A DNA stretch of 52,222 nt from a virus. The stretch is from positions 1-52,222 of IMG/VR virus record IMGVR_UViG_3300034407_000958; one strand, written 5' to 3'. The notes under the pieces were generated by a model, which saw only the letters and a program-made list of their open reading frames with translations, was not told the origin of the DNA and searched no databases. This document shows, piece after piece, positions 2,451-33,805 of this stretch (position 1 is its first letter; every line of letters begins with the position of its first letter). A program made the position numbers and the translations under genes.

Positions 2451-4412
2451 TTATGCGATTGCGTAGAAGATGTATGTTGCACCAGATGCGTTCATATTAT
2501 AAGCACTTACATAGTTTATGGTAAAACCAGAGCTTAGAGGGTCTATAATATCATAGTTATTATCTTCTGCTGTAGTTGTATTCGGGCGAAGTATAGCGTC
2601 ATTTCCTGCAACAATACCCCTTGCAGTATCTAGTATAAACCACGTCCCACTTGAGTCTGTCCTTTTAAGGAGGACAAACCTTGCAGCTGTCGTAAAGCCA
2701 CAGTCAATGTCTTGTGAAGTGCCATTACCAGTAAACGAACCCACCTTGGATACGCCGGGGAGTGTGGCGAAGAGGTAGGCTATGTAGTTTTCGCCTGAAT
2801 TATTTACCGTATGGTCAGAGGCAACTGTAAATGATGATGCTGTTGGCTCAGTGTTGTTAAAATCACCTGCATCTGACCACGCATTGGTTAGGTTTAAGAA
2901 CATTTTCTTTGGGGTTCCACCGCTATCGGTTCCTGCGTAAACAACCCATTTATCTGATTGATCTCTGTTTTTTACCCATATCATCTCAGGTGCAACTGTT
3001 AAGTTATGGCTTACAGTACGACCCACTACTGAATTTCCGCTGTAAGCAACGACATCAAAGAAGCCGGGCGCTCTCTTCCACATCCATGAGTAAAAACTTG
3101 TGTTTGTTCCACTATCATACCAACCGTCCATGTAATCAAAGTCGGCATTGCTAAACCAGCTAACTTCTGCATCTGTTGAGTTAGTTTTAAGGTTCGGTGT
3201 GCGTCTTAGACGGTCTTTTACGTACCAATCATATGTAGTACCCACATTGCGAACTAAAGCAAGATCAACAGGAAAACCACTTTGAAATGCAGGGCTAGTG
3301 CTAGGACTTTGTAAAGCATCTACTGCAAACACCTCAGTCCCACTCTCAGGTTGAGCAAGGGGTCCACGGCGGATTGCCATGTAGATGTAGTTGCCACCAT
3401 TAATATTACATTCACCGTCGCCAGAATTTAATTGAAACCCTTGAGAGTTTGCCCCTATTCTGGGTTGAGATTCTTCTATCCCATTGTCATTAGCTCTAAT
3501 TCTAGCTCCATTACCAGAGGCTGGCATTCCACGTATCACATCATAAATTATCCAACTTTCATTACTATCGCTTCTTTTTACTAACACCCACTGCGCTTCA
3601 AAACCTAAGTTAATAACATGACCTGCTGTACTATTACCAGCATAACTACCACACTTGATAATGTCCGAACCATCGGGGCCGAACTCACCGTCATTATTGT
3701 TGTGTGCGAATAGGTAGGCTACGTAAGTGCCACCACTTGTACCTGTTTGATTATCACCGTAAACTCTAAAAGTTGTGCTGGTCATATTAGCAACACCGCT
3801 TGCAGTAAACCTACCACCAGCATCTCCTGAACTGTCAGAAACATTAAGCTGCAACATTTCCGAGGGAATACTTCTGTGCCATACAGCCCAGTTTTCTGCT
3901 GAGTTAAGTCTTTTTATTATAACAGTACCAGGTGCAGTACCTAAGTTATGAGATATATCTTGAAAGTCAGCGGCACCATTTCCTGTACCAGAATATGTAA
4001 CGCAATCAAAAAACTTAGGGGCCTTCCGAAAACTCCACGAGGCGTAGTCTTGACCAGACTCATTAAACTGTTTGTCGGTCCCGTTTTGCAGCGTAAAGCC
4101 ATTACTATTAAAACTACTGACACTTCTACTGGCAAAGTCTAATTCAGAAGTAGCTAGGTTGGGCATTACATACTTATAATTGCTGTTTGATCCAGTGCCT
4201 CTTTCGCTGTCAACTATCCAATGCTGGTCAGCAGAAGATCGTATTTTTCCCCAAATCATTCCACCTTCACCAGCAAGGTCAATACCGTTGGTAATCGTCT
4301 GTGCAGCACTCGTGCCAGCATATAAGTAAGTGCTGAACACGTCTGTAATATCAAGTGCAGCACCGCCAGCATTACCAGCAGCGGCTTGGAGCATTTTCTT
4401 TTTAGTAGCCAT
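2451..4412 (-). CDS. Tail/fibre protein with repeated Trp-rich beta domains
   Basis: A 653-residue protein made largely of repeated units of roughly 100 residues. Each contains a V/S-Y/F-x-G-N/T-G core, a HNLG/CGF segment, then VLVKR-x-D-S-x-x-W-x-I/V and later a YIAYLFA-type strand. Four copies of the KR-S/T-x-W motif can be seen: around ENWAVWHRS, ESWIIYDVIRG, DKWVVYAG and GTWFILDTARG. Such repeats occur in marine phage tail proteins and suggest a receptor-binding or baseplate-decoration role, which is inferred. The N-terminus (MATKKKMLQAAAGNAGG) is short and basic. The AAGGAG site 8 bases upstream fixes the start. It follows the 207-residue fibre gene with a 12-base gap. Confidence 0.75.
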   Translation of the reverse strand: MATKKKMLQAAAGNAGGAALDITDVFSTYLYAGTSAAQTITNGIDLAGEGGMIWGKIRSSADQHWIVDSERGTGSNSNYKYVMPNLATSELDFASRSVSSFNSNGFTLQNGTDKQFNESGQDYASWSFRKAPKFFDCVTYSGTGNGAADFQDISHNLGTAPGTVIIKRLNSAENWAVWHRSIPSEMLQLNVSDSSGDAGGRFTASGVANMTSTTFRVYGDNQTGTSGGTYVAYLFAHNNNDGEFGPDGSDIIKCGSYAGNSTAGHVINLGFEAQWVLVKRSDSNESWIIYDVIRGMPASGNGARIRANDNGIEESQPRIGANSQGFQLNSGDGECNINGGNYIYMAIRRGPLAQPESGTEVFAVDALQSPSTSPAFQSGFPVDLALVRNVGTTYDWYVKDRLRRTPNLKTNSTDAEVSWFSNADFDYMDGWYDSGTNTSFYSWMWKRAPGFFDVVAYSGNSVVGRTVSHNLTVAPEMIWVKNRDQSDKWVVYAGTDSGGTPKKMFLNLTNAWSDAGDFNNTEPTASSFTVASDHTVNNSGENYIAYLFATLPGVSKVGSFTGNGTSQDIDCGFTTAARFVLLKRTDSSGTWFILDTARGIVAGNDAILRPNTTTAEDNNYDIIDPLSSGFTINYVSAYNMNASGATYIFYAIA

Positions 4413-30595: not shown

Positions 30596-30853
30596 ATGAA
30601 CTTTGAATTAGGAAATTGCGTTGAACCTACACGCAGCATATCAGAAGTATCTAGCCCATCGGACGTTAAGGTGTGCTTCACTTTGGAAGAGATTAAAGCT
30701 CTGGCGCAGGACTACCACGCACAGAACTTTGAACACGGTGATGACGTTGTCTGCCAGACCACACGCCACCTAGAGTTTCGGAAGCGGGACGTAAACATAA
30801 TGTTGAAGATGCTCTACGCAATTGAACAGTATGAGGGTCAGTCTAATGGCTAA
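30596..30853 (+). CDS. Unknown 85-residue protein overlapping the integrase
   Basis: A protein with an acidic start (MNFELGNCVEPTRSISEVSS), then FTLEEIKALAQDYHAQNFEH and a basic helix (EFRKRDVNIMLKMLYAIEQY). The frame overlaps the start of the integrase by 8 bases, and a GAGGA site lies before its ATG. Genes placed like this before integrases are often excisionases or regulators, but I see no winged-helix or helix-turn-helix signature, so no function is claimed. Confidence 0.65.
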   Translation: MNFELGNCVEPTRSISEVSSPSDVKVCFTLEEIKALAQDYHAQNFEHGDDVVCQTTRHLEFRKRDVNIMLKMLYAIEQYEGQSNG

Positions 30854-31973
30854 AGCTCCCTATGTCCGCCCTCGTATGAAAGGTAACACCCGCGTCTATG
30901 ACATCAGGCCCACCGACGAACTGCTCAGAGCGTTCCCCGATCTAAAGCGAGACACACTTACGGACAGCGCCGAGGCTAACGCCCGTGGGTATGAACTGAA
31001 ACGTAAGTTTGAAGCTTGGAAGGCAGGTAATGTCGAGGATGTATTTGTAGATAAACGGTCAGTCGAAGCTCTGACTGAATACTATAAAAATTCCATGAAG
31101 TTTCAGACTATACCTAGTCCTTCTACCAAGAGGTCATACGATGACCACATCCGACACGTTCTACCCGAACACGTTACTGGTAAACCTTTTGGTAAACTTC
31201 ATGTGTCCGACGTTGACTACGAATATGCTAACGCCCTGTGGCTACACATAGCTAATAAGATTAGTACACACAAAGCTAACCACACCTTCAAGGTTCTAAA
31301 GATCATTTGGAACGAAGCTCTCCGCGCAGGGAAGGTCAAGGCTAACCCGTTTGCATTGGTCAAGCTTCCGCAACTTCCTGTTCGTCGGGTCTTATGGGAA
31401 TTAGATCAAATCGACGGGATGATTGAGTACTGTGACGAACAAGGCTTCTATAGCATGGGTACTATGATCCGTATGTGCTTTGAGTTTTGCCAGCGGCCTG
31501 TTGATGTACGCACTATGAAGTGGGCCAACATAGATGGGCTTACTGGAGTGTCTAATTTTACCCAGCAAAAGACAGGCAAGCAGATGCGTATTAAGGTCAC
31601 CAATGCTGTACAAGATCGTCTGCACCTTCACGCCAAGCGTAATTCAGACGATTACATCTTTGCCAATGAAAATACTGGCAAGCCGTTCACGCAGGATAGA
31701 TGCAACAAGATCTTCCGAAAGATGGCTGATGGCTACGGTCTACCTGAAGTCGCCTTAGAGGGACAATTCAACAAAGATGGCAGTCAAAAGTATTCGACGA
31801 TCTGGATGTCTGACCTACGGCGCACTGGAGCAACCCATGCAAGCCAATCAGGATGTACTGACAGACAGTTGATGTCCCTTACAGGCCACAAGAACCCTTC
31901 GATGCTAGTAGTCTACGCAATCGAGGGCGAGACTGAAAGTACCGCAGCTAATACTAAAAGAGGATTACTATAA
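30846..31973 (+). CDS. int: Tyrosine integrase
   Basis: A 375-residue site-specific recombinase. The N-terminal part (RPRMKGNTRVYDIRPTDELL) is an arm-binding-type region, residues 75-175 form a SAM-like core-binding domain (YDDHIRHVLPEHVTGKPFGK, HTFKVLKIIWNEALRAGKVK), and the catalytic domain has Arg in CQRPVDVRTMKW, Lys in QQKTGKQMRI, Arg in SDLRRTGATH, and GHKNPSMLVVYA with the nucleophilic Tyr. The usual His before the second Arg (HxLR) is Ser here. An attP-like tRNA fragment lies 850 bases downstream. I chose the ATG at 30846, with GAGGG upstream. It implies a temperate option. Confidence 0.9.
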   Translation: MAKAPYVRPRMKGNTRVYDIRPTDELLRAFPDLKRDTLTDSAEANARGYELKRKFEAWKAGNVEDVFVDKRSVEALTEYYKNSMKFQTIPSPSTKRSYDDHIRHVLPEHVTGKPFGKLHVSDVDYEYANALWLHIANKISTHKANHTFKVLKIIWNEALRAGKVKANPFALVKLPQLPVRRVLWELDQIDGMIEYCDEQGFYSMGTMIRMCFEFCQRPVDVRTMKWANIDGLTGVSNFTQQKTGKQMRIKVTNAVQDRLHLHAKRNSDDYIFANENTGKPFTQDRCNKIFRKMADGYGLPEVALEGQFNKDGSQKYSTIWMSDLRRTGATHASQSGCTDRQLMSLTGHKNPSMLVVYAIEGETESTAANTKRGLL

Positions 31974-32723
31974 ATGGGTATAGAACAAATAACTGTAGAG
32001 TATGTGCGACACACTGGCGACGATCTATCAGTGGTAGATGCGGCGAGGGTAAGTTACGACAAGAAAAGTGTAGCTTTGGGCTACACAGGTTCATCAGATA
32101 GTAATATGATACCCGTCATCCACGACAGTGATAAAAAACTTATTAAGTACTTAGCTGACCACCAACACTTTAGCCCCTTCAACCACGCATTTGTAACCTT
32201 CAGATGCACGGCCCCTGTTTTCTGTATCGCCCAACTTCAGAAACATGAGTATATGCCATGGAATCAGGTCAGCCGCAGATATATTGACACCGACCCTGAG
32301 TTCTACACTCCAGACGAATGGCGTGGTAAACCTAAAAACTCTAAGCAAGGGTCCAGCGGTGCGGCAGAGTCCCAGTACTTTCCTAACATTTACGCTAAAG
32401 AGATACATGAGAAGTGCTTGGGTGATTACAGGAAAATGATTGCCCAAGGCGTTGCCGCAGAGCAAGCCCGTATGCTGCTTCCTCAGTCGATGTTAAGCTC
32501 TTGGGTATGGTCAGGTAGCCTGAAGGCCGTGAGCAAGATGTGTAAGCTTCGTTGCGCCCACGACACTCAATATGAGAGCCGGGTAGTGGCCAATAAAATC
32601 AGTGAATATATGGAAGAATTGTTTCCAGTATCGTGGGCCGCGCTAATGGGGAAAGAGTATCCTACCATCCGATCAATGACTGCCGAAGAACGCCAACGAG
32701 CTAAAGAGCGTGAGAATCAGTAA
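31974..32723 (+). CDS. thyX: Flavin-dependent thymidylate synthase
   Basis: A 249-residue enzyme that makes dTMP from dUMP using FAD, NADPH and methylene-tetrahydrofolate. It shows the N-terminal VVDAARVSYDKKS, HQHFSPFNHAFVTFR for flavin and nucleotide binding, and a changed signature KHE-x7-S followed by RRYID where most ThyX have RHR-x7-S. Near the end come AEQARMLLPQSMLSSWVWSG and LRCAHDTQYESR with active-site Arg. The start directly follows the integrase stop (TAAATG), so int and thyX form one transcript. The change from RHR to KHE is worth noting but does not by itself mean inactivity. Confidence 0.93.
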   Translation: MGIEQITVEYVRHTGDDLSVVDAARVSYDKKSVALGYTGSSDSNMIPVIHDSDKKLIKYLADHQHFSPFNHAFVTFRCTAPVFCIAQLQKHEYMPWNQVSRRYIDTDPEFYTPDEWRGKPKNSKQGSSGAAESQYFPNIYAKEIHEKCLGDYRKMIAQGVAAEQARMLLPQSMLSSWVWSGSLKAVSKMCKLRCAHDTQYESRVVANKISEYMEELFPVSWAALMGKEYPTIRSMTAEERQRAKERENQ

Positions 32724-32733
32724 GTTACCTTTG

Positions 32734-32787
32734 AAAAAATGGTAGAAATGGCAGACTGCCACGATGCATTCTGCCATGCCATTTTTT
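32734..32787 (+). terminator. Terminator after int-thyX
   Basis: A long stem pairs AAATGG and ATGGCAGA-type left arms with TTCTGCCAT and CCATTTTTT right arms, with a 5-base bulge on the left and one base on the right. The right arm ends in a six-T run on the plus strand; the A-run at the left means it could also work on the minus strand. Confidence 0.85.
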
Positions 32788-32824
32788 CTAAATTATTGAG
32801 GTAAGTTGCTGTTATCTAAACAAT

Positions 32825-32861
32825 TGGCTCCGGCGGTAGGGATCGAACCTACGACCAATTG
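32825..32861 (-). other. attP core, 3' end of a tRNA-Asn-like gene
   Basis: Read on the minus strand, this is the 3' part of a tRNA: TTGGTC variable region, T-stem/loop GTAGGTTCGATCCCTAC, acceptor strand CGCCGGA, discriminator G and CCA. TTGGTCGTAGGTTCGA plus G73 is characteristic of tRNA-Asn. No 5' half is present, so it is not a working tRNA but the identity segment that restores the host tRNA gene after integration. CAATTGG and CCAATTG flank it as an inverted repeat, and two WAACGAT repeats (32884-32901) nearby could be arm sites. A host tRNA-Asn with this 3' end would be attB. Confidence 0.75.
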
Positions 32862-32956
32862 AGTGGTAGGAAGTATTGTATTTAAACGATAAATTAACGA
32901 TTATTATAAATACCTACTAACTTTAAGTGGCGTGGTAAAACAATTACAAATGCATT

Positions 32957-32992
32957 TAATTAGGTGTTGACAGGTTAAGTAATCTGTATAAG
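32957..32992 (+). promoter_or_regulatory. Promoter-like sequence before the primase gene
   Basis: AATTAGGTG is followed by TTGACA (32967-32972) and TATAAG (32987-32992), but the spacing is only 14 bases; TAAGCT at 16 bases is the alternative -10. The gap 32862-33037 otherwise holds AT-rich sequence and no gene. Confidence 0.35.
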
Positions 32993-33037
32993 CTGACGCT
33001 GTCCCTTTGGAGGGGCAGTATAACCAACGGCTAGTAA

Positions 33038-33805
33038 ATGACCTATCAAGAACAACTACAGATAATAAAAGATATACCTATCCAAGAAGGTGTTACAAAA
33101 GTAATAACCTGCCCATTCTGCTATGAACCAAAGAAGTTAGCTCTATCAAAGATTGATGGTAAGTTAATGTGGAACTGTTACAGAGCCAGTTGCTCTGCCA
33201 AAGGAATTTACACAGGTAAACGTAACCTTCAGGCAGTCAAAAACTATCTAGCAAATGAAGTTAGCATAAAGACTGCTTTTAGAAAGCCTGTACCTTCGAT
33301 GACTACATCAGTCAGAAACCATCAACCAGCCATCGACTACCTAGAAAAGAACAACAGCCTAGAAGCATACGAAAGCGGTTTGGTAGATGTCCGATATGCT
33401 CCCGCCGAAGACAGGGTGTTATTCTGTAGCGCAGAAGGTGCAGTAGGTAGATCACTCAAAGCATACGGACCCAAGTGGATTACATACGGATCACTTCCCG
33501 AAGGAATACACATTGGTACAGGTGACACCGCCGTCTTAGTTGAGGATGCCCCTAGCGCCTGTAGTGTGAGTCGCATCGATGGCTTAGTTGGTGTGGCATT
33601 GCTTGGTACTAATGTTACCCCAGCAATTAAAAATTCTCTGCATTTGTATTCCACAAAATATTTAGTGCTTGACAAGGATGCATCTAAAAAGGCATTACGA
33701 ATTAGTAAGGCGCTCGGAACTAAGATATTTGTAAGACTCACAAGTGATGATCTAAAGTGCCTATCAGTTAAGAAAATAACTAAGGTACTTAATTGTGATT
33801 ATTAG
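33038..33805 (+). CDS. DNA primase with zinc ribbon and TOPRIM domain
   Basis: A 255-residue protein. The N-terminal zinc-binding part has CPFC (residues 25-28) and WNCYRASC (about 46-53), as in T7-type primases. The TOPRIM domain follows, with VLVEDAPSACSVSRI (acidic Glu-Asp) and YLVLDKDASKKAL (the DxD-like pair). It lacks the helicase part that T7 gp4 carries; a separate helicase is encoded at 34319-35536. It synthesises primers for the lagging strand. There is no close ribosome site before the ATG (GGAGGGG lies about 27 bases upstream), so expression may be low or the leader structured. Confidence 0.85.
   Translation: MTYQEQLQIIKDIPIQEGVTKVITCPFCYEPKKLALSKIDGKLMWNCYRASCSAKGIYTGKRNLQAVKNYLANEVSIKTAFRKPVPSMTTSVRNHQPAIDYLEKNNSLEAYESGLVDVRYAPAEDRVLFCSAEGAVGRSLKAYGPKWITYGSLPEGIHIGTGDTAVLVEDAPSACSVSRIDGLVGVALLGTNVTPAIKNSLHLYSTKYLVLDKDASKKALRISKALGTKIFVRLTSDDLKCLSVKKITKVLNCDY

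Follow-up and report, generated by a model that had tools for sequence, protein, structure and literature searches.

The defining feature of HMO-2011-type phages is a DNA polymerase A that contains a partial DnaJ domain and two CXXCXGXG motifs (PMC6918029). For the branch considered here, the only integration site that we found reported in the literature is that of CRP-3; hybrid reads together with PCR placed it in tRNA-Met (CAT), and its core overlaps the 3' end of the tRNA (PMC6918029). The isolate closest to the phage studied here is CRP-738, an HMO-2011-type phage whose host is Roseobacter strain FZCC0089 (PMC9038755). About a dozen isolates of the type now exist, so the statement in a preliminary description of this DNA that the type is known mostly from metagenomes no longer applies.

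The window (the whole 52,222-nucleotide stretch of viral DNA that was analysed) was assigned to this type in the same description, and the assignment is borne out by shared core genes in the expected order, with primase, helicase and DNA polymerase forward and terminase, portal and coat genes reverse, collinear with CRP-738. The window terL is 88% identical to that of CRP-738, 71-74% to those of CRP-3, CRP-212 and CRP-235, and 59% to that of HMO-2011, and the polymerase has both CXXCXGXG motifs (CHDCNGMG at 311 and CKTCTGAG at 349). As in int-bearing (subgroup III-like) HMO-2011-type phages, a tyrosine integrase lies upstream of the replication module. Reading rightward, int, thyX, the core described below, primase, helicase and polymerase follow one another, while the terminase and structural genes occupy the other strand. 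The integrase gene (int, 30846-31973, plus strand; PHROG_1 integrase, 6.8e-39; PF00589, 3.5e-14; PF13102) encodes a lambda Int-type protein of 375 amino acids; its reading frame is open from 30822, and homologues start with MAKAPYV. Between int and the candidate attachment site is thyX (31974-32723, plus strand), encoding an FAD-dependent thymidylate synthase (PF02511, 1.7e-42; PHROG_85, 3.9e-63). The DNA primase gene (33038-33805, plus strand; PHROG_47, 6.4e-15) begins 213 bp after the core start and serves as the anchor gene of the conserved order int-(thyX)-attP-primase; in relatives with tRNA-Asn, the core mostly lies 190-230 bp before it. Directly upstream of primase, at 32963-33037 in the window and also in the related contig L241, is a conserved block of the form TTGAC...TATAAGCTGACGCTGTCCCT...GGGGCAGT...ACCAACGG, which looks like a conserved promoter or leader of the replication operon.

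The minus strand at 32825-32862 reads TCAATTGGTCGTAGGTTCGATCCCTACCGCCGGAGCCA, a 38-nucleotide block identical to the final 38 nucleotides of a Shimia tRNA-Asn gene. In the numbering of Rhodobacteraceae tRNA-Asn(GTT), the block comprises nucleotides 39-76, from the base that opens the 3' strand of the anticodon stem through to CCA. The preliminary description was right in recognizing an exact tRNA 3' half on this strand, but its length of 37 bases was one short. It also correctly placed the integrase about 850 bases away (851 bp separate the end of int, at 31973, from the core, and thyX lies between them) and noted that a 5' half is absent: ARAGORN found no complete tRNA in the 52-kb window, no tRNA similarity is evident 5' of nucleotide 39, and the window reads GTGGTAG where the tRNA has the anticodon loop TTAACAG. 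A structural pattern for tRNA 3' ends (TGG, acceptor, T-stem, T-loop) occurs once on the two strands of the window, at 32825, and is absent from the opposite strand in 1.05 Mb of DNA from related phages, so the resemblance is not due to chance. The CCA-proximal 32 nucleotides match at least 119 genome contigs, nearly all of them Rhodobacteraceae by title, with a few titled only Alphaproteobacteria; the one clear exception is a bin labelled Akkermansiaceae, possibly a contamination. ARAGORN called tRNA-Asn(GTT) in 25 of 30 matching loci checked, confirming the Asn identity first proposed from the pattern of the fragment. A plasmid search gave no match.

The position of this fragment is the same as that of an attachment site already used in an experiment. 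In CRP-3, CRP-212 and CRP-235, the intergenic region that precedes primase contains the 3' end of a tRNA-Met, and these ends align with the tRNA-Asn fragments of the window and CRP-738. The published phage-side primers for CRP-3 (attL-R and attR-F) map to 2829 and 3642 and flank the tRNA-Met fragment at 3171; the position of attP in CRP-3 has therefore been validated by the experiment of others. Identity to the host tRNA and synteny with a verified attP are direct observations, and on these grounds 32825-32862 is very probably an attP core, as originally suggested. The mechanism would be a known one, to which the window phage adds a member, here shown for a group of ocean phages. Int would be held by its N-terminal domain on an array of arm-type sites left of the core, IHF would bend the DNA around the core and assist Int, and Int would recombine attP with the 3' half of the host tRNA-Asn(GTT) gene, which the phage-borne 3' fragment would restore upon integration. 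We consider it highly probable that this explanation holds as a whole, with the window representing an HMO-2011-type podovirus that infects Rhodobacteraceae and is temperate or at least potentially so, able by inference to recombine through its own Int and to form lysogens.

To get a broader view of this arrangement, we examined viral contigs retrieved through the core pattern and, avoiding selection on the core, further sets retrieved through primase or integrase. Every core-fetched contig in which an HMO-2011-type int, primase, helicase or polymerase gene is present has part of a tRNA, usually 200-225 bp upstream of primase. A tRNA 3' end is present in 57 of the 62 non-redundant primase-anchored loci whose upstream sequence was long enough (Met in 31, Asn in 21, Asp in 3 and another tRNA in 2), and the 62 non-redundant integrase-anchored loci with primase comprise 60 with Asn and 2 with none. 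Relatives that keep int without the fragment are the exception: 48 of 51 non-redundant primase-anchored relatives bearing int have a tRNA fragment at the homologous place, the exceptions including L344 and L347, close relatives with a 72-74% identical Int and no tRNA fragment upstream of primase. In L347 (IMGVR_UViG_3300017903_000068), the segment corresponding to the array and core of CRP-738 is missing upstream of primase at 2820. Subgroup I isolates (HMO-2011, CRP-1 and CRP-2 and, for CRP-207, CRP-345 and CRP-603, about 11 kb per phage) showed no convincing tRNA 3' fragment, also when the pattern was relaxed; they would therefore use other sites, or cores that are shorter.

Integrase and target are directly observed to go together. 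An integrase tree with 48 rows requires 6 changes of target, compared with 18.2 in shuffles, and the tRNA target is largely predicted by integrase clade, so that the targets of uncultured relatives can be predicted. On the primase tree, phages with tRNA-Asp are nested within the tRNA-Asn backbone, and their Int is only 27-30% identical; integrase and target have therefore been exchanged together. The tRNA-Asp-like 3' end before primase is found in L286, L295 and L298, and L323 and L327 have the 3' ends of other tRNAs, differing between the two, at the homologous place. L225 combines a tRNA-Asn-type attP with an Int from the tRNA-Met side of the integrase tree, possibly an independent target switch.

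For islands in tRNA genes, Islander gives sub-sites at the anticodon loop, the T-loop and the T/acceptor junction (PMC4383910). Across 34 diverse tRNA-Asn attPs, nucleotides 39-76 are constant except for host-type alleles and one substitution (in L287), whereas the anticodon loop varies, and the tRNA-Met copies, CRP-3 included, have a boundary equivalent to nucleotide 39. All sequence 3' of the crossover has to come intact from the phage, and the T-stem strands covary within phage copies; strand exchange would therefore most likely occur toward the anticodon loop, at nucleotide 39 or immediately 5' of it. A crossover in the T-loop is disfavored by the same covariation and by the exact conservation of nucleotides 39-53.

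Examination of bacterial genomes for the core showed an allele in 216 of 298 sampled Rhodobacteraceae genomes. Of 289 genomes sampled evenly from the Alphaproteobacteria, 4 matched with at most 3 mismatches, all of which are also in the Rhodobacteraceae sample. The alleles of phage and host correspond, a further direct observation: tRNA-Asn copies in phages have a T-stem of GTAGG or GTTGG and an acceptor of CGCCGGA or CGTCGGA, and the GTAGG, GTTGG and CGTCGGA variants all occur in tRNA-Asn genes of the sampled Rhodobacteraceae genomes. The identity extends over all 38 nucleotides of Rhodobacteraceae tRNA-Asn, well beyond 30 bases. These matches point to the family Rhodobacteraceae as host, with no genus resolved, and they speak against SAR11 and SAR116. 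The concrete host that the preliminary description expected from the core is thus obtained at family level; a finer prediction is prevented by the presence of the core in most of the family. Even so, this links a very abundant marine phage group to its hosts from sequence alone.

Prophages flanked by the core, which the same description suggested looking for, were not found: 397 sampled Rhodobacteraceae genomes (a sample without a positive control) gave no terL match and no close int match, and neither int nor primase of the HMO-2011 type is present in any of the 38 viral contigs whose tRNA-Asn extends into the 5' half. No repressor gene was identified. The mismatch between the anticodon loop of this attP and that of the tRNA, the degenerate IHF-like sites described below and the missing fragment in L344 and L347 likewise weigh against the attP reading. 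In the contigs L178 and L184, a tRNA-Asn and its 3' fragment enclose elements of about 10.4-10.7 kb. In L178, where the tRNA-Asn copies are at 499 and 10886, genes for integrase, TerL, capsid, prohead protease and portal lie in the bounded stretch, and the element resembles a capsid-forming satellite in the same tRNA-Asn gene.

The window Int has an N-terminal arm-binding-like domain, a SAM-like domain and a catalytic domain, and its nearest solved structure, by sequence and by fold, is lambda Int. All catalytic residues are present (R217, K242, R325, H348 and Y357); the first H position of the R-K-(H)-R-H-Y series is S322, a position that is variable across the family. In the AlphaFold2 model, the N-terminal domain folds into three strands and a helix (E7-12, E15-20, E36-38 and H41-59), and it is predicted to be the arm-binding domain.

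Flanking the core are two degenerate matches to the IHF consensus WATCAANNNNTTR (PMC8942017), each with 2 mismatches: TAAGTTGCTGTTA on the left (32802-32814, minus strand; -23 from the core) and AAACGATAAATTA on the right (32884-32896, plus strand; +59 from the core start). Counting sites in relatives with at most 1 mismatch, the left flank has one in 32 of 36 distinct tRNA-Asn and 13 of 21 tRNA-Met attPs, mostly at -11 or -23, and the right flank in 26 of 36 and 19 of 21, respectively, mostly at +56/57. The rate is 3-9% in the background and 10-20% in composition-matched shuffles. These consensus sites at fixed positions are putative binding sites for IHF.

Further left is an array of half-sites (32740-32781) consisting of TGGTA (32740-44), TGGCA (32749-53) and three copies of TGCCA (32757-61, 32772-76 and 32777-81). 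Most tRNA-Asn relatives have 4 or 5 half-sites in the same layout, roughly 50-87 bp left of the core. The word itself varies between phages (TGGCA, TCGCA, TTGCA, TTGTCA, TGGAA, CTGCA and GGGAT among tRNA-Asn phages, with classes assigned by eye), and copies within one phage largely agree. Among the window and the otherwise closely related L400-L403 and L405, the words TGGCA, TTGGCA, TTGGAA, GGGAT and CTGCA occur, covarying with the N-terminal domain of Int. Over much of the replication side of the locus, L402 and L405 show about 97% identity, which drops at the array and in the 5' portion of int: the C-terminal part of Int is 100% identical, the N-terminal domain 65% and the array 30%, though the two also differ in other short segments and the pair alone is no proof. 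Conversely, L124 and L279 share 83% of the N-terminal domain and 87% of the array, with a C-terminal part only 55% identical. Over 35 non-independent pairs with catalytic parts at least 85% identical, array and N-domain identity are correlated (Spearman 0.58), and the two change together yet are separated by about 1.7 kb of conserved sequence. Partial Mantel tests on all phages gave 0.25 (20/5000) for array against N-domain given the C-terminal part, and 0.36 (0/5000) for array against the C-terminal part given the N-domain; because this result is not clean, the arm-site reading relies mainly on the near-identical pairs.

The array is probably a set of arm-type sites, to which Int would bind, although a terminator hairpin, or an operator bound by a repressor or directionality factor, is possible if somewhat doubtful. 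The perfect inverted repeats would suit either of the latter, a T-run follows in some phages, the window among them, and near-identical N-domains can go with different words (96% identity for L276 and L368, 92% for L157 and L401), just as the word of L179 is common to phages with N-domains only 70-83% identical. A hairpin, however, needs no repetition of the word on one strand besides the inverted copies, the T-run is not conserved, and both the tracking of array by N-domain identity over the 35 non-independent pairs and the contrast between L402 and L405 count against either function. Whether the N-domain and the arm-type array form a fast-diversifying lock-and-key pair, with complete differences in arm specificity even where attB (tRNA-Asn) is common and the catalytic domain identical, and with every integrase acting on no genome but its own when related phages meet at that tRNA gene, is a proposal for which we hold belief and doubt in about equal measure. 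The hypervariability of the array and its apparent covariation with the N-domain are the more interesting part of this system. If the array does consist of arm sites, it would provide natural domain swaps for testing how integrases recognize their own phage.

The same covariation bears on whether the attachment site is still in use. The absence of prophages from the genomes and contigs sampled, the loss of attP in L344 and L347 with retention of int, and the degenerate IHF-like sites of the window clade could all reflect an attP left over from a temperate ancestor in a lineage that is now effectively lytic. Such a relic is improbable, given that the 38-nucleotide block is exact in the window and its near relatives (Int 97-99% identical) while the adjoining part of the anticodon loop has drifted, that the catalytic residues of Int are kept, and that array and N-domain evolve in step among relatives. 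A regulatory role unrelated to integration, for instance as a tRNA-fragment RNA or terminator, would fit the long intergenic region between two operons and the adjoining inverted repeats, but it is scarcely credible for a fragment whose tRNA identity (Asn, Met, Asp and others) switches with the integrase clade and whose Met version sits at the site used experimentally by CRP-3.

An attP core in use thus remains our preferred reading, and int, attP core, IHF-like sites and probable arm array are systematically present in this HMO-2011-type branch. CRP-738 (MZ892992) is most like the window, sharing its gene order, terL (88%), Int (72% amino acid identity), TGGCA array and a tRNA-Asn fragment at the homologous place (2934-2971, 201 bp before primase); it differs in its GTTGG T-stem allele, in a tRNA match that extends into the anticodon loop, and in having no thyX annotated between int and attP. 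The attP of CRP-3 is likewise located between int/thyX and primase, with a core running from the equivalent tRNA position to CCA and IHF-like sites at similar spacing, but its target is tRNA-Met, its Int is only 29% identical, and a TGGCA-type array was not found. Lambda shares with the window the domain order and fold of Int, IHF sites around the core and, by homology, arm-type sites bound by the N-domain; unlike lambda, the window has a tRNA gene as target, an array found on one side only, and no Xis identified. Related integrases of Cluster K mycobacteriophages have differing arm-type consensus sequences with matching changes in the N-domain, the sites of subcluster K1 differing by one or two bases (PMC3203893). 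Unlike Cluster K, the HMO-2011-type phages examined here have whole words replaced between near-identical phages.
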